Positions 14,109 to 25,061 of a DNA stretch of 53,697 nt are shown in pieces. The DNA is from Bdellovibrio sp. (GTDB lineage: Bacteria; Bdellovibrionota; Bdellovibrionia; Bdellovibrionales; Bdellovibrionaceae), in NCBI GenBank assembly GCA_013360185.1, contig JABWCO010000005.1, forward strand, positions 1 through 53,697, read 5' to 3'. Position 1 is the first letter of the stretch; each line of letters starts with the position of its first letter. The notes under the pieces were generated by a model, which searched no databases, was not told where the DNA came from, and was given only the letters and a program-made list of their open reading frames with translations. The position numbers and the translations under genes were made by a program.

Positions 14109-16208
14109 GTGAATATGGCGCAGCATCTTGTATTATCCATTCTGTTAACTTTGACCTTCTCAGCTCAGGCGCAAGTGTCAGCCAAGGAGCAAAGTCAAAA
14201 TGGCCCAGCGGCCACGTCTCCCAGTGCGGAAACCTCAACCACCGAGGCTCAAACGCAAGAGCAAGAGGAAATTCCAGCACCGCAAAAATCATTGCTTAAA
14301 TCTGCGGCAACACGCGATTTCAATAAGGGTCTTTATTTTGACCAAGTCGACAACGGCGTGATCCTGCCGCCGCTAGAGTTGGACTATGACTTATCACAGT
14401 TTAATGGCAAGCAGCTGCGCATCGGGAATGTTCTGTTGAACGAAAAGAACTTTCTCTTCGCTTTGTTGCCTTTAGGTAAAACTCATTCACAACTGAACCA
14501 AGTTTTAAGTTCGGGCGATGCGGGCAAGTTGGCGTTGGTCATGTCGTGGCCCGAAAAGCTTTTATCTCACGGAACAATTGAGATGATTTCTCGCACGGGT
14601 GACGTTGTTTGGACGTATTCCTTTGATGAAGAGGCTAAAAAGGATTGGCAGAAAAAAATTGACGGATGGAGAAAAGAACTGATCGCGAAAGGTGTTGCGG
14701 CAAAAGACATAGCTCGATCTGGAATTTTTGGTTCTCAGTTTGCGATTTTAGATATTGAGGGCACGAATGCTCCCTTCAAAAATCAAAAAGAGTCTTTCCG
14801 TTTCTGTGTAACTCAAACTGATGGACGCAACTCGACCAAAATGTGCTCGCAACGATATGGCACGCGCACAACTGGCAATAATACGATCATGGGCAAGGTC
14901 CGTGTGGATCCGACAACGCCGCGCGTGCTCGTGCAGAACGAAGAGGCGGCGTTGAAAAACTCTGTCGTGGTCGGTGCCGAAATGCCGACGTCCTTCTTTG
15001 CGGAGTTAGCCAGTGGGGAATCTTACGAATTCGTGACTTTGCCAAACAAATTGGAACTGATGGATATCTCGGACACAAAAAAACCGGGCGTACTTAGAAT
15101 TGTGGGTTATGATACTCGACCCACGGGGCGCTCGATTATTTTAAATCCTGATCAGTACAGTTCACTAACCAAACTTTTGGGTTTTGAGGCGACGATCGGC
15201 GATCCTCGTAAGTTTTGGGCCGCAGCCATTCGTGGTGATGATCCGAAAATTTTCTTACCAGGGCAAGGCGGGGGGATTTTCAAACAACGTTTTGAACTGT
15301 CCGAAGTTCCGCGCACACAATCCCGCGTGTACTTGCATCGCAACACACCCAAGGGCACTTACATTGATGGCATCAAACTTGAGGGACGCAAGCAGCCCGT
15401 TGCGCAAGTGAGCTCCGAGCAAAACTCTGTTGAGGTCGATTCCCGTGATCCTTCGCATTTTACCTGGGAGTTTAAAGCCACAGAACGTGGGCAGATCAAT
15501 CGCGCTTATCTGGATGTGAAGTTCGCAGGTAAAGACTATAAATCATACTATGAAATTTATAAGGGCTTCCCGCGGGAAATCTCGGGACGTTTCACTGGAG
15601 TACAGGCATCCAGCGACTTTATTGTGATGGGAGAGATCGCCTACAATCAGTGGTTTGAGGATGTCTTCGGTTGGACGAACTATTGGATGTCACGCCAACG
15701 TTGGGGTGTCAGCGCAAAATTCTTTCAGTCATTCAATGAGCTTAAAGTCGATAGCGCAGGCAGTACAGCGCCACTCAGTGTTATGACTGTGGATTTGAAA
15801 TATCGTTTAACACCCGGCTTATGGGGGCGTGACGAATCGGTGGGTGCCTTATTATCTTATCAAAATGTGACCTTTGATAAATTAAAAGCACCGATGTTAG
15901 GTGTGGGGGCCTTTTGGGCCCGCTCTATGCCAAAAGTGTTTGATGACTTATTTAACTTGATGCCGTTCATGCGCTATCCAAAATGGGTGGACATGGAGTT
16001 CATTTATTACGCGAGCTCCATGGACTCAAACGTAACCTTGAATGCACCGATGTCCTTAAATTTCCACGGAAAAGTTTTGTGGTCAGAGCGCTTATTCGGG
16101 GAAGCCGGTTTCGGTATGAAACGTTACGGCTTTACAGATTCTTCATTGAATCAAAAAGCAGAGCTGAACACGTTCTATGGAACTGTGGGCTTAGGAATCA
16201 ATTTTTAA
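14109..16208 (+). CDS. Large secreted/outer-membrane barrel protein of unknown function
   Basis: 699 residues. GAGG lies 8 bases before the GTG at 14109; an ATG two codons later (14115) is an alternative. The signal peptide is MAQHLVLSILLTLTFSAQA, followed by a 35-residue low-complexity linker rich in Gln, Glu, Thr and Ala. The middle part (about 90-480) alternates strands with Gly/Asn turns, like a set of Ig-like or beta-sandwich modules. From about residue 490 the pattern becomes amphipathic strands with aromatic girdles (WFEDVFGWTNYWMSRQRWGVSAKFF, FYGTVGLGINF at the C-terminus), typical of an outer-membrane barrel ending in Phe. A surface-exposed periplasmic-plus-barrel protein is inferred. 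No family is recognised. Its stop is overlapped by the convergent gene's terminator. Confidence 0.7.
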   Translation: MNMAQHLVLSILLTLTFSAQAQVSAKEQSQNGPAATSPSAETSTTEAQTQEQEEIPAPQKSLLKSAATRDFNKGLYFDQVDNGVILPPLELDYDLSQFNGKQLRIGNVLLNEKNFLFALLPLGKTHSQLNQVLSSGDAGKLALVMSWPEKLLSHGTIEMISRTGDVVWTYSFDEEAKKDWQKKIDGWRKELIAKGVAAKDIARSGIFGSQFAILDIEGTNAPFKNQKESFRFCVTQTDGRNSTKMCSQRYGTRTTGNNTIMGKVRVDPTTPRVLVQNEEAALKNSVVVGAEMPTSFFAELASGESYEFVTLPNKLELMDISDTKKPGVLRIVGYDTRPTGRSIILNPDQYSSLTKLLGFEATIGDPRKFWAAAIRGDDPKIFLPGQGGGIFKQRFELSEVPRTQSRVYLHRNTPKGTYIDGIKLEGRKQPVAQVSSEQNSVEVDSRDPSHFTWEFKATERGQINRAYLDVKFAGKDYKSYYEIYKGFPREISGRFTGVQASSDFIVMGEIAYNQWFEDVFGWTNYWMSRQRWGVSAKFFQSFNELKVDSAGSTAPLSVMTVDLKYRLTPGLWGRDESVGALLSYQNVTFDKLKAPMLGVGAFWARSMPKVFDDLFNLMPFMRYPKWVDMEFIYYASSMDSNVTLNAPMSLNFHGKVLWSERLFGEAGFGMKRYGFTDSSLNQKAELNTFYGTVGLGINF

Positions 16209-16281: not shown

Positions 16282-18273
16282 TTAGTACGGAATTTCCAAT
16301 TTAACAGATTTCGTAATTGTCGCTGCGACCTTGCCTGTTTCTTTCAAAGTCCTTTTTGCCGTCACATCCAAGTACAAAATTTTTCCTGGTTTAATGTACA
16401 GCCACAAATCGCGAGCAGTGAAGCCAAGTTCAGTGAACGGCACATTCAGTTGCCCCTGGGTGAATTTGCTTTCGTCAATTGTGACCTCTCCGACAGCAAC
16501 TTTGTCTTTCCATAAAAAGCCCCCTGCACGAGACAGTTTGACGGTGTAAGTGGTTTTAACGCCATCATTTTTTCTAAGTGCATCTGCCATGGTTAAGCGC
16601 GCCACATCGTCGATGCCCGAAATGCCGATAGAATGAATAAGGTCGGCATTTTTAAGCTCTTCGATGTTGATAAAGCTCTTGTTCACAGAAACATTAAAGT
16701 TCACAGCGGTTACCAAACGGCGACCTTGACGCTGCACTTGCAGCAGCACCACGAGCTGTTCTTCGCGACTAAAGGCTTTTGCCGGAATTTCAAGGGCCGC
16801 CTTCTTATTCGCGTCTAGAACCTCTGAAGCTTTGTAGGTGTTAGTCCACAATGATTCATTATTTTTTGTTAAAACAGAAAGTTTATAAGACGTCTCAAGC
16901 AAAGGATGCGCTCCACTGTCTTTGAACTCTAAAACTGAGCTTTCTTTGCCCTCATTTAGGCGTACATCTGTGACCGTTTTTTTGCCAAAGTCGTCAGCCT
17001 TCCAGCGCTGGAAAAGAACTTCTTTGGTGACAGTAAAACTAAAAGTTTTATCTAAAACAAGTCCACTGCGAGTCGCAGAAATCTGAATAAGGTAATCCAC
17101 ATCAGCCGGTAAAGCCTGCGGTAAAGTGATCGCAAGTGAATCCTTCGTGGCTTTTTCTGACCCCACAATGCCTTCAAAGACCACCGAGTTGCTGTCTTTT
17201 TCTAAAATACGTAAGTTGTACTGGGTCAAGACGCGCGCTTTGATGCCAGAATCTTGAATGATCAGTTCATTGAAAACTTCATTTTTTCCAGACAGTTCGA
17301 TTTTTTTAATCGATGAAGCGCCTAAAGTGCTTTGATCGTATTTTGGTACTAAAGCCAGCTCAACAATTCCACTTGCGGCGCGAATGTCTTTACGAGCCAC
17401 TTTGTAACCGTAAACAGAATCTAAAACTTCAACAGAGACATCCGGGGACTGCTCTGAGCCTGTCATAGAAAGACGCAAGCTTTCAACTTCGCCTGGTAAC
17501 AACGTCGCGTTCGCCGGGAAGACCACTTGCACTCGCATATTCCAAGTGTGATCAAATTCATCACGGTAGCGAGTGACACAACACTTCGTCACGGTTCTGT
17601 AGCGAGTCACTGTACGAGAGCGCGCTTCAGAGCGGTACTTCGTCACTGTTCGCGTGCGGTATTCAGAGCGATATTTTGTAACGGTACGGTACTTCGTGAC
17701 TGTGCGAGATTTCTGCACACTTTCATAGCCACACACTTCGCGGCTGCGCGGGACATTTTGGCAGACTTGACGGTCTGAGCAATCTTCGCGGCTAGGACCC
17801 GTTTCACACACTTTGCGTGTTTTACAGATGCGCTCTCCGTGGGCGTTCTGACCACACTCTTCGACCATTTGGCAGATTTGTTCACCCGGGCGAGGGGCGC
17901 ACAGGCGCTCTTGATGGCATTCTCTTTCATAATCAGTTTCAGTGCGGCAACGATATTCAGAATCAGTATAATACTCTGTATCTAGGTAAGACTCTTGCTC
18001 CTGATAGGGCACGTCTTCATAGTATCCTTCAGTCTCGGTGTAAGGCACGTCGACATAATAAGTTTCTTCAGCTTGATAGGCCTCTTGTTCTTCATAAGAG
18101 TCCTGATAGGGAACACTCTTATAGATGTCCGTGGAAAGTGTTGCTTCCATTTTTTGGTTTTCGGCGGCAGTTCTTTTCAGCACAAGACTTGATTCGTCCG
18201 CATGCGCAGTAAGAGCCGTGAGCACTAGCAGCATTGCTGCTGTTGCTCGCTTTATGAACTTGTGGTTTTGCAT
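16282..18273 (-). CDS. Secreted protein with acidic Tyr repeats, Cys-rich block and basic Thr/Tyr repeats
   Basis: 663 residues; GAGGGG precedes the ATG, and residues 1-25 are a signal peptide ending in AHA. Residues 51-107 are degenerate acidic tyrosine repeats around VPYxE (SVPYQDSYEEQ, VDVPYTETEGYYEDVPYQEQ). Residues 109-181 hold ten cysteines with regular spacing (C-x5-C, C-x8/9-C). Residues 190-230 are basic repeats of R-T-V-T-K-Y-R, ending at a CC pair. The remaining 430 residues are three or four beta-sandwich-like modules of about 100 residues, with repeated phrases such as FSFTVTKEVLFQRW and FNVSVNKSF. The three N-terminal blocks swap charge from strongly acidic to strongly basic. 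An extracellular or surface assembly role is inferred. The planctomycete YTV-type cell-wall proteins come to mind, but no family is established. Confidence 0.75.
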   Translation of the reverse strand: MQNHKFIKRATAAMLLVLTALTAHADESSLVLKRTAAENQKMEATLSTDIYKSVPYQDSYEEQEAYQAEETYYVDVPYTETEGYYEDVPYQEQESYLDTEYYTDSEYRCRTETDYERECHQERLCAPRPGEQICQMVEECGQNAHGERICKTRKVCETGPSREDCSDRQVCQNVPRSREVCGYESVQKSRTVTKYRTVTKYRSEYRTRTVTKYRSEARSRTVTRYRTVTKCCVTRYRDEFDHTWNMRVQVVFPANATLLPGEVESLRLSMTGSEQSPDVSVEVLDSVYGYKVARKDIRAASGIVELALVPKYDQSTLGASSIKKIELSGKNEVFNELIIQDSGIKARVLTQYNLRILEKDSNSVVFEGIVGSEKATKDSLAITLPQALPADVDYLIQISATRSGLVLDKTFSFTVTKEVLFQRWKADDFGKKTVTDVRLNEGKESSVLEFKDSGAHPLLETSYKLSVLTKNNESLWTNTYKASEVLDANKKAALEIPAKAFSREEQLVVLLQVQRQGRRLVTAVNFNVSVNKSFINIEELKNADLIHSIGISGIDDVARLTMADALRKNDGVKTTYTVKLSRAGGFLWKDKVAVGEVTIDESKFTQGQLNVPFTELGFTARDLWLYIKPGKILYLDVTAKRTLKETGKVAATITKSVKLEIPY
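17578..17706 (-). repeat. Degenerate repeats encoding RTVTKYR units
   Basis: About six imperfect copies of a 15-21 base unit (around ACTTCGTCACTGT/GTACGGTACTTCGTGAC on the + strand) encode residues 190-232 of the repeat protein. Copies differ at synonymous sites, so selection appears to act on the protein. Confidence 0.7.
17953..18123 (-). repeat. Degenerate repeats encoding acidic Tyr units (VPYxE)
   Basis: This stretch encodes residues 51-107 of the repeat protein, with three VPY cores and 14 tyrosines among Glu, Gln, Asp and Thr. The period is about 14-20 residues and irregular. Confidence 0.65.
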
Positions 18274-18555
18274 TTTATTCCCCTCAGTGATGTCTCAACC
18301 CGGTAGCGGTTTGGGACTGAAAATCTTCCTGTGCAGGCCATAGCAAGGGGCGTACCTAAATTTATATGGGCCCCTCGGCAGGCTGTGTCAAGTGTGAGCA
18401 AAAGTATAAATTTTACCTGTCGAAGACTTAGAAACCCTCGTCATTTCGGTAACGTGGCGATGTGACCCCGTGAGCTCTTGGCCTGCTCCTTGCTCTTGCA
18501 AGCGGAGTCAAAAAAAGGACACCTTTTGCTACCGCCACCCTTGAAAGGGGTTCGT

Positions 18556-21500
18556 ATGTCCCTAAAGATAGTCATAGTATGCGCGATTTGCCTGATGATG
18601 CTGTCCATTGCCAGCGCAGAAAGCGTGTCCTTACCGCTGAAGACCATAAAAAAACCTTCTGCGGATTTAGTCAGTTCTTCAGGAACTCCTTTAGATGTAG
18701 GTCAAGCGGCGGCCCTTGCACAAAAAGGCACGGATCTGAGTGGGTTAAATCCTGTTGAAAATAAGATGTGGCAAAATCGCATCTATCCGGCTCAAGAAGA
18801 AATCCCAGGATCTTTTCCGACAGCAAACTATGGCGTGCAGTTTCTTTCTGAAGAGGCGGCGTTGCCCTTTACTTATATGTCACGTGTACAATCACGCGAA
18901 AATCCTGGGGCCTTTTATCGTTTAAGTTTAAGTCGTTATTCGCACACAACTTTGATGCGCGCAGCCCTTTTAAGAAAACTGGGTTATTACGTGCCATCAC
19001 CTAAACACTACCGCAACTTACGGGTGTTCTTTAAAACAGACGAAGAAAAACAGGCGTTCTTAAAGAATGCCCAAGAATCGATGATCTCTGACTTCCAAAG
19101 TCGGGGATGGGTGACAGAAGATAATAAGCAAAGTAACTCTTTGGTTTTTTCTGATGCTGTTTTAGAGCCCGCAATGGCCGAGTACTTTGATATTCAGTGG
19201 GGTTATGCTCCAGATCCAAATCATCCGGCGCAGTTGCCTATAGTTCAAAGATTTTCTCGGTACCGGGCTTATCGCGCATTGATTCTGCCATTTGCCTTGG
19301 TGGATGTGCCTGAAAGTATCAATCGTTTTTCGCCTAAATTTGGATCCGTCCTTTCTGGCAATGTCGTTTTAAATCATCCGGCAGCAGATTCTTTTGCGGC
19401 CTGCACTTACGAAGACGCGCGGTGGTTGACATTGCGTCTGGCAGAGCTTCGTTATCAGGACTTTCAAGAGATCGTCAAAGCCGGGGCCTTCCCAGCAGAA
19501 TTAGAAGAGTTGGTGTTGGCGAAGCTTCTGTATCGCGTGAACAATTCTTTTGAGCTTTTCAATGTGCGCGGACGAAATTCTTTGCCCTTGCCGTCATTGG
19601 ATATTTCGACTCGCGATGGTTTAGTTAAAAATGGCAAAGTGATGAAAGAATTTGTCCCAGGGTACCCGCAGCGTTTCGCTCATGGGGACCGTCAGTCGCC
19701 ATTCCAAGACGGTGATTTGGAGCGCTATCTGAGTATCCGTGGTAAATCCATGGCGATCGGCACGCTATTGAATCACTTAAATACTAAGTTGGATCTTTTA
19801 AAGGTCAGTGACCTTTATCAAAAACGGGGTCAAGAAATTCAAAACCGCGTGGCTCAACATATCAGAGAAAAACCCAACGAGCCTCTTTATCAAAAAGTCG
19901 AAGCTTGGGGCGGTCCGGTGGGCGGTTTTACCGTTGCAGGCACACGTCACATCAGCACGGGCACTTACTTTGGCAGTTCCGCGGCTATTCAGTTGGTCGA
20001 CAACATGAGTGTCGGCGCCAATCTGGGTTATTTTATGACTCTGGACGGAGTCAATAAGGTCACTCCTTTGGTGGGCTCTAGCGTTTTAGTCACACGAGAT
20101 TACACCCACGTTCGTCCTTTGCTTTCAATACAAGAGGGCAGCAACGTTAATTGGCAAGATTTAGTCATTCCTAAATACATGAGCAATGTCGCAGAAATCT
20201 TAGACAGCAAAGAACCTGCAAAAGGGCAAGATGGCAAACCAGGCCGTCAACCGCTGGATACTTTCTTAGCAGAACTGCGCGAAGGGGAAGTCTTCACCAT
20301 CACAGATTCTGTGGTTTTAGCGACCTACGGACAATTGGCTTCGTCGTTAGATGTGCTGATGGGGATTGCGCCTTTAAACTTTATGTCGTCGGTGTCTTTA
20401 GGGGCAGATGCTTCCAAAGTTATTTTACGTCAGACAAGTTTTATGCGCACCAAAGAGGGCGTACAAGTCTATGTGCGAGCCCAAAACGGGAAAACGCTTG
20501 GGACTTCGCTGGATCTTAATTACTTTATTAATTTGTTAAGAGTTCGCTCTAGCACAACCACGACAGAACTTAAAACCGATGCTTTCATTATTGATTACAA
20601 CCCAGAATATGCAGAGTTGATCGATACGGGACGAGTTGAGCAAAAATTTGTAAAAGATTTTGTGCAAACCCGTGACAATTTAAGACCGGTTTTGCGTTCT
20701 CTTTTTAAGAGCAACGATCCTGAGCTTTTATACGCGAAGTTTGCCTATAAAAAGTTTGAGATCGACCACAATTTAAAAACCAAAGAGCTGCGCACAAAGT
20801 TTTTAGCAATGCGCGTGAACTCTTTCAGCGAAGACCATTTGCTAAAAATTCGTTATCCAAACAATCCTGAAGCTCCGGATCTTAATCCCAAAGACGAAGA
20901 GGTCACCTTGTTTGCCAATAAAAAAGGCGAACTGGAAGGGCGCGATCTTTTAGGTTTTGCAACAGACTGGATTGAAGGAATTCTGAATAAAGTTTCGTCA
21001 AAAAGCAAAATTGACTTGGCTCGCAACGAGGACCCCAATCCCGCGAACACTCCTTACGGGAGAGCCTTTTGGCGCACCGTTAGTACAGAAGCTGATTTGA
21101 CCGTGAATGGCACCCAGTACCCTTCGGTGGCTGTGGTTCAGCACGTCTGGGGCGGCTGGCATTTGGAGCGCAAAAAATTCTTCCAGCTTTTAGATGAAGT
21201 GCAAAAGGATCTTAAGGGTGCGCCCTTGATGAACTATCGCCTGATCGAGCCAGAAGCTTTTGCCAATGTCACAGCGATCGACTTTTATCGTGTGACCGCA
21301 AATCTTTCGATTTTACCAGGGGGCTTAGAAAAAATCCGTGATTTGATCTTGCAACCGGCAGCTACCGGAAAATCAGTTTCGCGAGCTGGATTTATTAGCG
21401 GTCTGTTTCAAAAGATCAGCGAAAAAATCGGTAAAAAAGCCCGCGCCAATGACAAAGAGATGTTTCAGCAAGTTTTAAGCATTTTGGGTAATGGAGATTT

Positions 21501-21957
21501 AACTCAAGGTAAATTTATCTATCGCCGCATGTGTGAAGACTATCAGGCACGTTTGCACAATGGTCGGGACAACGTCAATATGACTTCGGCATGGGTTAAC
21601 GGCACCAATTACGAATGCATGGTTCCTTGGATGGAAAAGCTTTTAAATCTTTCAGCCTCTTATCCGCAAGATAAACGTGCCCAAACACGATGGATGACGG
21701 AAGTGGTTTTTGTGTTAGAAAAACAAATTCCATTGCCAATGCTGTTACAAATCCTCGGCGAAGAAAACTATGTCTTCTTCGTGCGCATCAACGGCTTCAG
21801 AGCGGGTGACGAGGATGGCGACTTAGAATATTTCTCAAACACTTTAGGCGATCCTAAAAAGAATATGGATTACGCCAGTGGTTTGATTGCGATGTTTGCC
21901 AATAAAACCCGGATTTCACCTATCGAACTGGATCGTTCTCAAGGGAGCTTCCGATGA
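18556..21957 (+). CDS. Large secreted protein coupled to a subtilase, unknown function
   Basis: 1133 residues. The start at 18556 gives the signal peptide MSLKIVIVCAICLMMLSIASA and has AAAGGGG upstream; the frame is open to 18478 without homology. The protein is a mixed alpha/beta sequence without repeats. A glycine-rich, strand-like stretch (about 480-560: GGFTVAGTRHISTGTYFGSSAAIQL) may be a barrel or sandwich. Acidic/basic helical segments dominate the last third. Two Trp-rich spots (VQHVWGGWHLERKKF) and FRAGDEDGDLEYF near the end are notable. No enzyme motif was found. Its stop overlaps the subtilase start (ATGA), so the two are made together; it could be a substrate, chaperone or surface platform for the protease. 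Confidence 0.75.
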   Translation: MSLKIVIVCAICLMMLSIASAESVSLPLKTIKKPSADLVSSSGTPLDVGQAAALAQKGTDLSGLNPVENKMWQNRIYPAQEEIPGSFPTANYGVQFLSEEAALPFTYMSRVQSRENPGAFYRLSLSRYSHTTLMRAALLRKLGYYVPSPKHYRNLRVFFKTDEEKQAFLKNAQESMISDFQSRGWVTEDNKQSNSLVFSDAVLEPAMAEYFDIQWGYAPDPNHPAQLPIVQRFSRYRAYRALILPFALVDVPESINRFSPKFGSVLSGNVVLNHPAADSFAACTYEDARWLTLRLAELRYQDFQEIVKAGAFPAELEELVLAKLLYRVNNSFELFNVRGRNSLPLPSLDISTRDGLVKNGKVMKEFVPGYPQRFAHGDRQSPFQDGDLERYLSIRGKSMAIGTLLNHLNTKLDLLKVSDLYQKRGQEIQNRVAQHIREKPNEPLYQKVEAWGGPVGGFTVAGTRHISTGTYFGSSAAIQLVDNMSVGANLGYFMTLDGVNKVTPLVGSSVLVTRDYTHVRPLLSIQEGSNVNWQDLVIPKYMSNVAEILDSKEPAKGQDGKPGRQPLDTFLAELREGEVFTITDSVVLATYGQLASSLDVLMGIAPLNFMSSVSLGADASKVILRQTSFMRTKEGVQVYVRAQNGKTLGTSLDLNYFINLLRVRSSTTTTELKTDAFIIDYNPEYAELIDTGRVEQKFVKDFVQTRDNLRPVLRSLFKSNDPELLYAKFAYKKFEIDHNLKTKELRTKFLAMRVNSFSEDHLLKIRYPNNPEAPDLNPKDEEVTLFANKKGELEGRDLLGFATDWIEGILNKVSSKSKIDLARNEDPNPANTPYGRAFWRTVSTEADLTVNGTQYPSVAVVQHVWGGWHLERKKFFQLLDEVQKDLKGAPLMNYRLIEPEAFANVTAIDFYRVTANLSILPGGLEKIRDLILQPAATGKSVSRAGFISGLFQKISEKIGKKARANDKEMFQQVLSILGNGDLTQGKFIYRRMCEDYQARLHNGRDNVNMTSAWVNGTNYECMVPWMEKLLNLSASYPQDKRAQTRWMTEVVFVLEKQIPLPMLLQILGEENYVFFVRINGFRAGDEDGDLEYFSNTLGDPKKNMDYASGLIAMFANKTRISPIELDRSQGSFR

Positions 21958-24900
21958 GACACTTTACCTGTGCCTTAGTTCTGTCGACTCTTTCGGCTCT
22001 GTCATCCGTGGCATGGGCTGCAGATCCTTTTTATCAATACCAATGGGGCTTAACAAATCAAGGTCTGCCACAAATGGTGGATTTAGATCCGATGCAAACT
22101 TATAAAGTGCCCGCCCGAGCCCAAGAGGACGTGGGTCTGCCAGAGCGGCAAAAGGCTGCAAAAAAAGTTGTGGTGGCCGTCCTAGATACAGGGATTTATA
22201 AAAATCATCCGGACCTAAAGAGCGTCATTCATCGCAATGAGTCCGAGTGCCGCGCATTAGATAAATTTAAAGCGTGCTTAGAAAGCAATGAACGCAAAGT
22301 GTGTGAAGCTAAATGGATGGATTTAAAGAATCCTGAAGTGGATCAAGACAAAAATGGCTATCCCTTGGATTGTCAGGGGTGGAGTTTGCTCGGACCTTCC
22401 GTTAACGGCATTATGGGCCGTCCAGACTTTGATGACGAACAAGGTCATGGCAGTCATGTTGCGGGCATTATCGCAGCCGAAGTCGGCAATAATATCGGTA
22501 TTCAGGGTTTAAGTGAAAACGTTGAAATTCTGCCGGTGCAAGTGATCGGTGTACAACCCAACGAGCCGATCAAGCCCTTATCTATTTACGATTCAGCGTC
22601 TGAAGAAGGACGCGAAACAATCAAACGCAGCTTAGGCGATGTGGTCGCTCGAGGCGTGATCTATGCGATGCGCTCAGGCGCTCAAGTGATTAATTTTTCA
22701 ATGGGCTGGCCCCAAACTTCAGATTCTGAATTTATGCGCAAAGTGATTGCGGAAGCGCAAGCACGCGGTGTGATCATTGTTGCCGCGGCAGGAAATGATT
22801 CAACCAAGGCGCTGTTAAGACCTTGTGCCTATGCAAACGTGATCTGTGTTGGGGCGTCTGGCCCCGATGGCGCTATAACTCACTTTTCTAATTTCGGCAG
22901 TGGTGTGGATCTAGTGGCCCCGGGCTTAAATATTTTAAGCACATATCCTCTTTCAAAACGCCCAGTGCGCTTTCGTTCGACCTTAGGTTATGAATACTTA
23001 TCTGGCACTTCTCAGGCCGCTCCGTTTGTGACCGCGGCCGTTGCAGAAATGCTAGCGCGTGGTGTTCCTGCCTCTGAAGTCTATGCACGTTTAGTTCTAG
23101 GTTCTCGTCCATTAAGGTCGAATCTGTCTTTGTTGGCAGGGGGATCCCACCAAGCAGGGGCCGCCCTGGGTGCAGAAAAAGAAGTTTATAAGAAATATTC
23201 AGTCGGTGGAAATTTAGATGTGCGCAAAGCTTTATCCGTACAGGCGCAACCTTTGATCGTGATTGCCAATAAAGAAAAAATTGAAATTCCCTGGGATCGT
23301 CAAAGCAAGGATCTGTTTTTCGAAATTTCTTTCGTGAACAAGTGGCAAGACGTCGCCATTGGCAAAGTAAAAATGAATCCCCAGTTTCTTAAACCTCACG
23401 CGGAAGCTGTGCGACCGTGGATCACCGCGATCAAAGAGGTTGCCCCTTATCCAGGAATTTGGAAAACCGGTGAAGTACGAAAATACGTGGTGGCACTGGC
23501 TTTAAATGATGCTGCTGATCCAGCAAATTCCCGCGTCCCCAGCGAGCTGGATTTGACTGTGGATGTGGCCGTTGGTGACGCCGTCCCACGCCGTTACGTT
23601 ATTGAGTCAGAAATCACGGTGGAAGTGAACGAATCAATGCGGGGGAGCGACGTCACACAATTCCCCATTGTCGGTATGCCTAAAGGCAGAGTGTCTTTTA
23701 TTCCTGTGGACCAAAACTTAGACGCCGATCCAGATAAGCGAGACTATTTAGCGTACCTGGATCAAAAAAATACCTGGCAGTTGTGGGTGATCGCCAACCA
23801 AGGACGAAGCTATGAGGCCTTGGGTGGAACAAAAATCCGCATTGAAGGCAACAGCGAAAACTTTATTGATAAGATCACGGCGCGCATTGATTTGAATGGG
23901 GACGGGCGCAGTGAGTATGTCTTAGGCGTTTTAGAAAACACCCAAGACGATGAAAATGCCAAGGGCTCGCCCACAAACTTTTATGTTTTCGACAGTTCCA
24001 TGAAGCTTGTTGAAAGTTTCCGGTACAATGGAGAACTTGCGGCAATGCCACTGGATGCCTCACAAATCTATTGGCAAAAAGTCGGCAGCACAAAACGCCC
24101 TGCCTGGATCGGTGGAGGCAAGGATCCCGCACGGAAGCGTTCCTTGAAAGATCGTTGGGAAAATCCAGAGGACATTGAAAAACAGCAGCTGCGTTTTTAT
24201 TTCTTAAATGAAAAAAATGAACTTAAAGCCCTAGAAAGCCATCAAGGTTATAAGATCGTCGATATCATTCAGCCTCGCCAAGAGCAGGTGGAAGCTGGAC
24301 GCATCTCGATTCTTTTGGCGCGCAATCAAGGTAGCGAAGCCAAGCCTTCGTATTTGTATGACTTCGCCGTGGCAGAAGTCAGTGGCGGCCAAGTGCAAAA
24401 CTTTATGGAGTTGGATCTTTTCCATGATGCCAAGGTCTATCGCAATATCTTGGACACTCGAGTTGATCGCATCATGAACTTGGATTACGGCAAAGACGAA
24501 TTTGCTGGCAGCTTCTGGTTTGGTGAGGGGTTGAGTCGGCAGCAGCGAGTCACCTTGTTTGATAATAAAAATTTAGAAATTTTAGACAGGCAGCTCAGTG
24601 CAGAGCGGTCCCAGTTTGACTCTGCCTTGCGTGTTCGAGCGGTTTTTGCTGGAGCGCAGCGTAAGGGGGCCGTCATTTTAACCAACTCAGAAATTCAATT
24701 TCACGATCTGATTTCCGGGCAAATTTTGAGTCGCAGCTTAGAGCGCTACAGTTTCTTCCCGGATAATTTATTGGTGTCTTTGTATATTCCTCTGACAATT
24801 CAGGATGTTCGCGACGCGGCATCGAAGTTGCCGGCGATGTTTACGATGGAAAGTGCGGGGCTCAGTCGTGGTGTCAAAATGTTGGTACCACTTTTTGCAA

Positions 24901-25061
24901 GGGATGGTTCCGCGATCGAATTGGTGTCACCAGCTCGTTTGAGATTTAAATCCTCTGGTTGTCGTTCTATGGAGACACCGGTGTTTGATGGCTCTAAGGG
25001 CGCGCACTCATTTGATTACTATTGCGGAGATAAGTTACTGAGAGTTCATTTGACTTATTAA
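21954..25061 (+). CDS. Secreted subtilisin-like serine protease with large C-terminal extension
   Basis: 1035 residues: signal peptide MRHFTCALVLSTLSALSSVAWA, then an S8 peptidase domain (about 60-400). The triad is complete: Asp78 in VVAVLDTGIY, His165 in DEQGHGSHVAGI, Ser353 in YLSGTSQAAPFV; the oxyanion Asn is in VAAAGNDS. An insert of about 60 residues with four cysteines (ECRALDKFKACLES, RKVCEAKW, LDCQGW) separates Asp and His. No classical propeptide is obvious: the catalytic domain begins soon after the signal peptide. The C-terminal 600 residues hold beta modules and a DLNGDGRSEYVLG calcium/FG-GAP-like motif. Coupled to the 1133-residue protein by an ATGA overlap and followed by a lipoprotein. 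A role in degrading prey or matrix protein is inferred. Confidence 0.93.
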   Translation: MRHFTCALVLSTLSALSSVAWAADPFYQYQWGLTNQGLPQMVDLDPMQTYKVPARAQEDVGLPERQKAAKKVVVAVLDTGIYKNHPDLKSVIHRNESECRALDKFKACLESNERKVCEAKWMDLKNPEVDQDKNGYPLDCQGWSLLGPSVNGIMGRPDFDDEQGHGSHVAGIIAAEVGNNIGIQGLSENVEILPVQVIGVQPNEPIKPLSIYDSASEEGRETIKRSLGDVVARGVIYAMRSGAQVINFSMGWPQTSDSEFMRKVIAEAQARGVIIVAAAGNDSTKALLRPCAYANVICVGASGPDGAITHFSNFGSGVDLVAPGLNILSTYPLSKRPVRFRSTLGYEYLSGTSQAAPFVTAAVAEMLARGVPASEVYARLVLGSRPLRSNLSLLAGGSHQAGAALGAEKEVYKKYSVGGNLDVRKALSVQAQPLIVIANKEKIEIPWDRQSKDLFFEISFVNKWQDVAIGKVKMNPQFLKPHAEAVRPWITAIKEVAPYPGIWKTGEVRKYVVALALNDAADPANSRVPSELDLTVDVAVGDAVPRRYVIESEITVEVNESMRGSDVTQFPIVGMPKGRVSFIPVDQNLDADPDKRDYLAYLDQKNTWQLWVIANQGRSYEALGGTKIRIEGNSENFIDKITARIDLNGDGRSEYVLGVLENTQDDENAKGSPTNFYVFDSSMKLVESFRYNGELAAMPLDASQIYWQKVGSTKRPAWIGGGKDPARKRSLKDRWENPEDIEKQQLRFYFLNEKNELKALESHQGYKIVDIIQPRQEQVEAGRISILLARNQGSEAKPSYLYDFAVAEVSGGQVQNFMELDLFHDAKVYRNILDTRVDRIMNLDYGKDEFAGSFWFGEGLSRQQRVTLFDNKNLEILDRQLSAERSQFDSALRVRAVFAGAQRKGAVILTNSEIQFHDLISGQILSRSLERYSFFPDNLLVSLYIPLTIQDVRDAASKLPAMFTMESAGLSRGVKMLVPLFARDGSAIELVSPARLRFKSSGCRSMETPVFDGSKGAHSFDYYCGDKLLRVHLTY

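Follow-up and report, generated by a model that had tools for sequence, protein, structure and literature searches.

Residues ~41-251 of a 663-aa exported protein of Bdellovibrio sp. very probably form one giant antiparallel beta-hairpin of ~210 residues that stands on Fn3/Ig-like modules. This architecture was deduced from the coupled lengths of the two hairpin arms, the mirror-like placement of the cysteines and the agreement of both with an AlphaFold2 (AF2) model. The gene is located in the window, i.e., the whole 53,697-nt stretch of contig JABWCO010000005.1 that was analysed, and its parts are listed below (window coordinates, strand, description and basis).

16282-18273 (-), hairpin-protein ORF, ATG start, 663 aa
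18199..18273 (-), Sec signal peptide, residues 1-25, type I, no lipobox (sequence; same type in orthologues)
18124..18198 (-), leading strand into the hairpin, residues 26-50, conserved R34 and L46 (A1 alignment; AF2 strand from ~41)
17950..18123 (-), ascending acidic arm, residues 51-108, 6/12-residue VPYxxx-ExYxxx repeats, 14 Tyr, net charge about -16 (composition, periodicity, arm coupling, AF2 strand)
17731..17949 (-), putative disulfide-ladder part, residues 109-181, ten Cys in mirror pairs (mirror test)
17833..17853 (-), hairpin tip, residues 141-147 (GQNAHGE), turn at 143-147 (Cys mirror centre 145; AF2 turn, model 118-122; tip conservation)
17584..17730 (-), descending basic arm, residues 182-230, RTVTKYR/RTRTVTKYRSEx repeats (composition, arm coupling, AF2)
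17578..17583 (-), invariant CC pair, residues 231-232, hairpin foot, no mirror partner (30/30 in alignment)
17521..17577 (-), end of the descending strand, residues 233-251, RDxFDH motif, joins the base (alignment, AF2)
16285..17520 (-), Fn3/Ig-like beta-sandwich modules, residues 252-663 (AF2 pLDDT ~90; Foldseek, VIA-align; A1)

The probable hairpin protein and its gene

The signal peptide of the protein reads MQNHKFIKRATAAMLLVLTALTAHA, and neither a lipobox nor a surface anchor was found in the 663 residues. By composition, residues 51-107 carry 14 Tyr, 12 Glu and 5 Asp with 1 Lys and no Arg (net -16), residues 108-187 contain exactly ten Cys (spanning 109-181), and residues 188-240 contain 17 Arg/Lys, 12 Thr and 6 Tyr (net +13) including the CC pair at 231-232. 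These counts bear out an earlier note on this DNA, which had described a Tyr-rich acidic block, a ten-Cys block and a basic RTVTKYR block. Identities at a lag of 6 over residues 51-240 were 8.3 s.d. above shuffles, and lags of 12, 18, and 30 were also prominent. Since the lag-6 signal is present in the Cys block too, the blocks appear to be versions of a single 6/12-residue beta-type repeat and seem to make up one uninterrupted element (residues ~41-251) instead of three. The CC pair without a mirror partner might form a vicinal or an intermolecular disulfide. Within the base, one ~108-residue module (about 428-535) is missing from most genus members in the A1 alignment.

The gene is single-copy in its own genome as judged by a search for further copies. 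Its convergent neighbour (window 14109-16208) encodes a 699-aa exported-looking protein with no Pfam match; a 1159-aa protein of unknown family (18478-21957) adjoins a 1035-aa protein with a subtilase (S8) domain (21954-25061). Among the Bdellovibrio relatives, the gene neighbourhood gave no conserved partner past close species. In one clade of the distant family f18, the hairpin gene has a fixed position on its own next to riboflavin-type genes. One orthologue copy comes from what we take to be B. bacteriovorus HD100, where the neighbours are an enoyl-CoA hydratase, a methylmalonyl-CoA mutase and a histidine kinase. These neighbours fit bd1852-bd1855 as named in two publications (PMC7529429; PMC12448681), and would give the orthologue a tag of about Bd1856/1857; in the literature searched, no paper that names Bd185-type locus tags together with 'Bdellovibrio' is about the hairpin gene.

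Relatives and distribution

A tblastn search of 119 related genomes detected relatives in 37, where the three-part layout can be recognised. Matches occurred in 15 of the 58 genera searched, mostly genera of the same family and a few from other families of the order; the gene is present in 17 of 24 genus genomes and missing from the other seven. Named records with relatives include Bdellovibrio bacteriovorus kdesi and several Bdellovibrio, Pseudobdellovibrio, and Bdellovibrionales bins. The A4 profile, built from more distant relatives, matched 93 of 291 sampled genomes of the phylum. A contig scan with the single protein as query returned no relative, and no relative was found in viral contigs. 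The acidic/Cys/basic layout described in the earlier note is conserved in orthologues, in which the repeats are neither missing nor scrambled.

Searches of Pfam and NCBIfam with the protein and all A1 and A4 members, and of PDB sequences with both profiles, gave nothing convincing, so the remark that no known family fits holds for these three collections. Five A1 members match NCBIfam EntB (best 1.2e-6); the window protein gave no EntB match. We know of no described family of this architecture, and the fold searches reached only the modules or phage proteins. The comparison with planctomycete YTV proteins that had been suggested yielded nothing: the PF07639 profile has no match to the protein (E<=1) or in the whole genome (E<=0.1).

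Coupled arm lengths

The length of the acidic arm was taken as the distance between a conserved anchor (L-x-x-[ND]) and the first Cys, and that of the basic arm as the distance between the invariant CC and the Cys that most closely precedes it. The resulting acidic/basic lengths in 25 orthologues were 34/25 (one protein), 46/37 (nine), 58/49 (nine), and 70/61 (six). The difference between the arms is constant at 9 and the lengths change in steps of 12 in 25/25 orthologues measured, as predicted by residue-by-residue pairing of the two arms. The segment between the arms varies from 42 to 174 residues in the same 25 proteins and is uncorrelated with arm length. On a tree built solely from the sequence C-terminal of the CC motif, the arm-length classes need about eight changes, and the well-supported branches alone force three to four changes per class. 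Close species are counted repeatedly among the 25, and the number of independent arm-length events is therefore nearer eight.

Cysteine mirror

The Cys spacings in the window protein are 10-6-9-6-10-6-9-6-10. The pairs C109-C181, C119-C171, C125-C165, C134-C156, and C140-C150 each sum to 290, which gives a centre at 145, and 10/10 Cys are mirror-placed about a turn (permutation p 0.0055). In the family set of 29 proteins, 246 of 267 Cys (92%) are mirror-paired, with 58% expected from shuffled spacings. The 37 proteins of the distant set have 598 of 678 Cys mirror-paired (88%, vs 49% for shuffled spacings), and 34 of the 37 reach p<0.05; L123 pairs 36 of its 38 Cys and L121 pairs 30 of 32. Some mirrors are imperfect: L005, L009, and L010 are one residue off, L119 and L120 pair 16/24 and L134 pairs 4/6, and in the distant set an offset of 2 is usual for the outermost Cys pair. 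The mirror centres in relatives are mostly NG/DG/SG-type turns. Gly is found in 62% of odd rung spacings vs 15% of even ones; an odd spacing would flip the strand face, and the Gly enrichment there fits beta-bulges.

Four proteins from Bdellovibrionota (L123, L121, L122, and L125) have 30-38 Cys in the mirror pattern with a half-span of up to 170 residues. In some orthologues (L013, L015, L026, L027, L028, and L102) the tip is a long Pro/Gly-rich or RPD-type low-complexity insert and the flanking Cys are still mirror-placed. The 10-Cys class shares a conserved tip, ECGTNAxGxxICKTR.

Structure prediction and fold comparison

AF2 was run on residues 26-663 with 14 sequences. In the model, the strands 41-128 and 162-251 enclose two shorter ones, and the turn falls at 143-147. 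The mean pLDDT is 83 and the pTM 0.44; since the hairpin reaches a pLDDT of only about 50-80 (beta-sandwich modules, about 90), the model supports rather than proves the hairpin. The arm-coupling and Cys-mirror tests are independent of the model. The charge register between the arms is not unique because the repeat has a 6-residue period and even shifts of 6 score alike.

In Foldseek and VIA-align comparisons, the modules match fibronectin-type and Ig-like domains (Z 8.5-10); the other fold-search matches were large phage proteins at very low TM-scores. The protein has tandem beta-sandwich modules together with a signal peptide, one of two features expected of Fn3/Ig-like multidomain stalk proteins (fibrillar adhesins), the other being an adhesive domain with a cell-surface anchor. 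Pfam and NCBIfam gave no adhesive or anchor domain in the protein, and the conserved tip is a candidate at most.

Alternatives to an intramolecular hairpin

Simple 6/12-residue repeats expand and contract easily, and the blocks could be unstable low-complexity sequence without a defined fold whose symmetry is accidental. We consider this scarcely credible, as such drift is contradicted by the exact coupling of the arm lengths, by a Cys mirror that in two protein sets greatly exceeds the level for shuffled spacings, and by invariant residues (CC231-232 and several Y/R positions). The earlier note had suggested a self-assembling or cross-linked surface material with charge pairing, disulfides, and possibly dityrosine; acting between molecules, these would join the three blocks into a layer or matrix at the surface. 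If two chains paired in antiparallel fashion, the arm lengths would indeed be coupled equally, the unpaired CC231-232 could link chains, and the block composition and the analogy with the cysteine-rich planctomycete YTV wall proteins (PMC8567305) also point that way. However, the Cys mirror, the nine residues between C140 and C150, and the NG/DG-type turn at the centre in relatives all fit a local hairpin; the hairpin in the AF2 model is intramolecular; and the genome contains no further copies and the gene has no conserved partner genes. We concluded that such a material is unlikely. The charge pairing it invoked survives as pairing of the acidic with the basic arm within one chain, as indicated by the arm coupling and AF2, and its disulfides as probable bonds between Cys mirror-placed across the hairpin of one chain, not between chains.

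Similar plans in Myxococcota and Methanobacteriaceae

Myxococcota proteins with a lipobox-like sequence show the same acidic-tip-basic order, and their tip is short (C-GSST-C or C-GYGTSHRT-C). Three of them (L045 6131-7705, L047 6173-7660, and L048 6227-7702) combine a lipobox-like start and TPR-like helices with the same hairpin plan and a tiny C..C tip. The AF2 model of a Myxococcota relative was of low confidence, with the base strands paired.

Several Methanobacteriaceae proteins (L046/L155, L157, L158, L159, and L161) end in acidic EPYxxTExY-type and basic RTRTVTKYR-type repeats. These adhesin-like proteins share the plan and the charge order with the Bdellovibrio protein. Their own acidic EPYxxTExY repeats, followed by a loop and basic RTRTVTKYR repeats, have the same 16-residue unit in both arms; they differ in having little or no Cys and a right-handed beta-helix ahead of the hairpin. 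The sign of the charge switches at residue 226 of 451 in L157 (halves of 226/225), and the only two Cys of the region are mirror-placed within about two residues of the midpoint. By the same crude measure the charge halves are less even in L155 (72/145), L159 (40/133), and L158 (200/249), to which long loops that lie in one half contribute. The available text of a 2024 survey of Methanobacteriaceae adhesin-like proteins does not contain the word 'hairpin' (PMC11532034). The plan found in Bdellovibrionota, Myxococcota and Methanobacteriaceae may reflect common descent or convergence.

Proposed function and comparison with known proteins

After Sec export, the protein would fold into a hairpin of ~100 residues per arm on the Fn3/Ig-like base. 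The lower hairpin would be held by the acidic Tyr-rich strand facing the basic Thr/Tyr strand, with Tyr-Arg/Lys and Glu-Arg cross-strand contacts, and the upper hairpin by mirror-placed, putative disulfide rungs that end in a tight turn. With a rise of ~0.33 nm per strand residue, an extended hairpin would be about 30 nm long; beta-hairpins are normally short elements.

Location beyond export and function, like the disulfides, we infer. As the likeliest function we tentatively propose a stiff cell-envelope spike or stalk. The tip that it could present to a ligand or to a second surface is either the conserved CGTNAxGxxICKTR or, in other species, a flexible Pro/Gly loop. The proposal draws on the export, the length, the conserved tip in the 10-Cys class and the occurrence of the archaeal relatives in adhesin-like proteins; gene-neighbour analysis gave no support for it, and 7/24 genus genomes do not carry the gene. 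The same hairpin architecture could instead serve as a periplasmic strut of set length, between the membranes or to the cell wall, which would differ from the spike in place and role alone. Such a strut agrees with the window protein, in which a Sec signal peptide but neither lipobox nor surface anchor was found, and with the Myxococcota relatives, which are apparent lipoproteins. A fixed gap is nevertheless ill-suited to the wide variation in length, with 12-residue steps between close species and ~170 residues per arm in distant relatives, and the Methanobacteriaceae relatives sit in adhesin-like proteins. We consider the strut rather unlikely.

By function, the proposed spike would be a variant of stalk-like surface proteins. 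In bovine ultralong CDR H3 regions ('stalk and knob'), there are likewise two long antiparallel beta strands with a YxYxY Tyr motif, a disulfide-bonded tip and an Ig base; these belong to an antibody, comprise 40-70 residues in total and have no homology to the hairpin protein, and an acidic/basic split and a mirror ladder are not described in the available part of that article (PMC5994613). Cys-rich repeats and a place in the cell envelope also characterise the YTV-motif proteins of PF07639 (PMC8567305; PMC5287468), and these cysteine-rich cell-wall proteins have been reported only from Planctomycetales (PMC8567305). The Bdellovibrio MIDAS adhesin Bd0875 is a predator surface protein with predicted disulfides, comparable to the surface role proposed here, but it has a vWA/MIDAS fold and a lipobox (PMC11003981).

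Implications

The long hairpins of this family seem to follow a rule that can be read from sequence: an addition to one arm is matched at the mirror position of the other. The rule provides a structure test without need for homology and exposes a large unannotated protein family in a phylum of predatory bacteria. More speculatively, giant two-stranded beta-ribbon spikes of roughly 20-60 nm may make up a previously undescribed class with a mirror-symmetric ladder (charge-zipper rungs below and up to 18 disulfide rungs above). They would grow only by matched insertion and could be cell-contact devices common to predatory Bdellovibrionota, Myxococcota, and methanogen surface proteins. As a natural design, the mirror hairpin would be a compact way to build rigid spikes at the nanoscale; should its tip bind prey or other cells, it would also offer a new handle on predator-prey contact.
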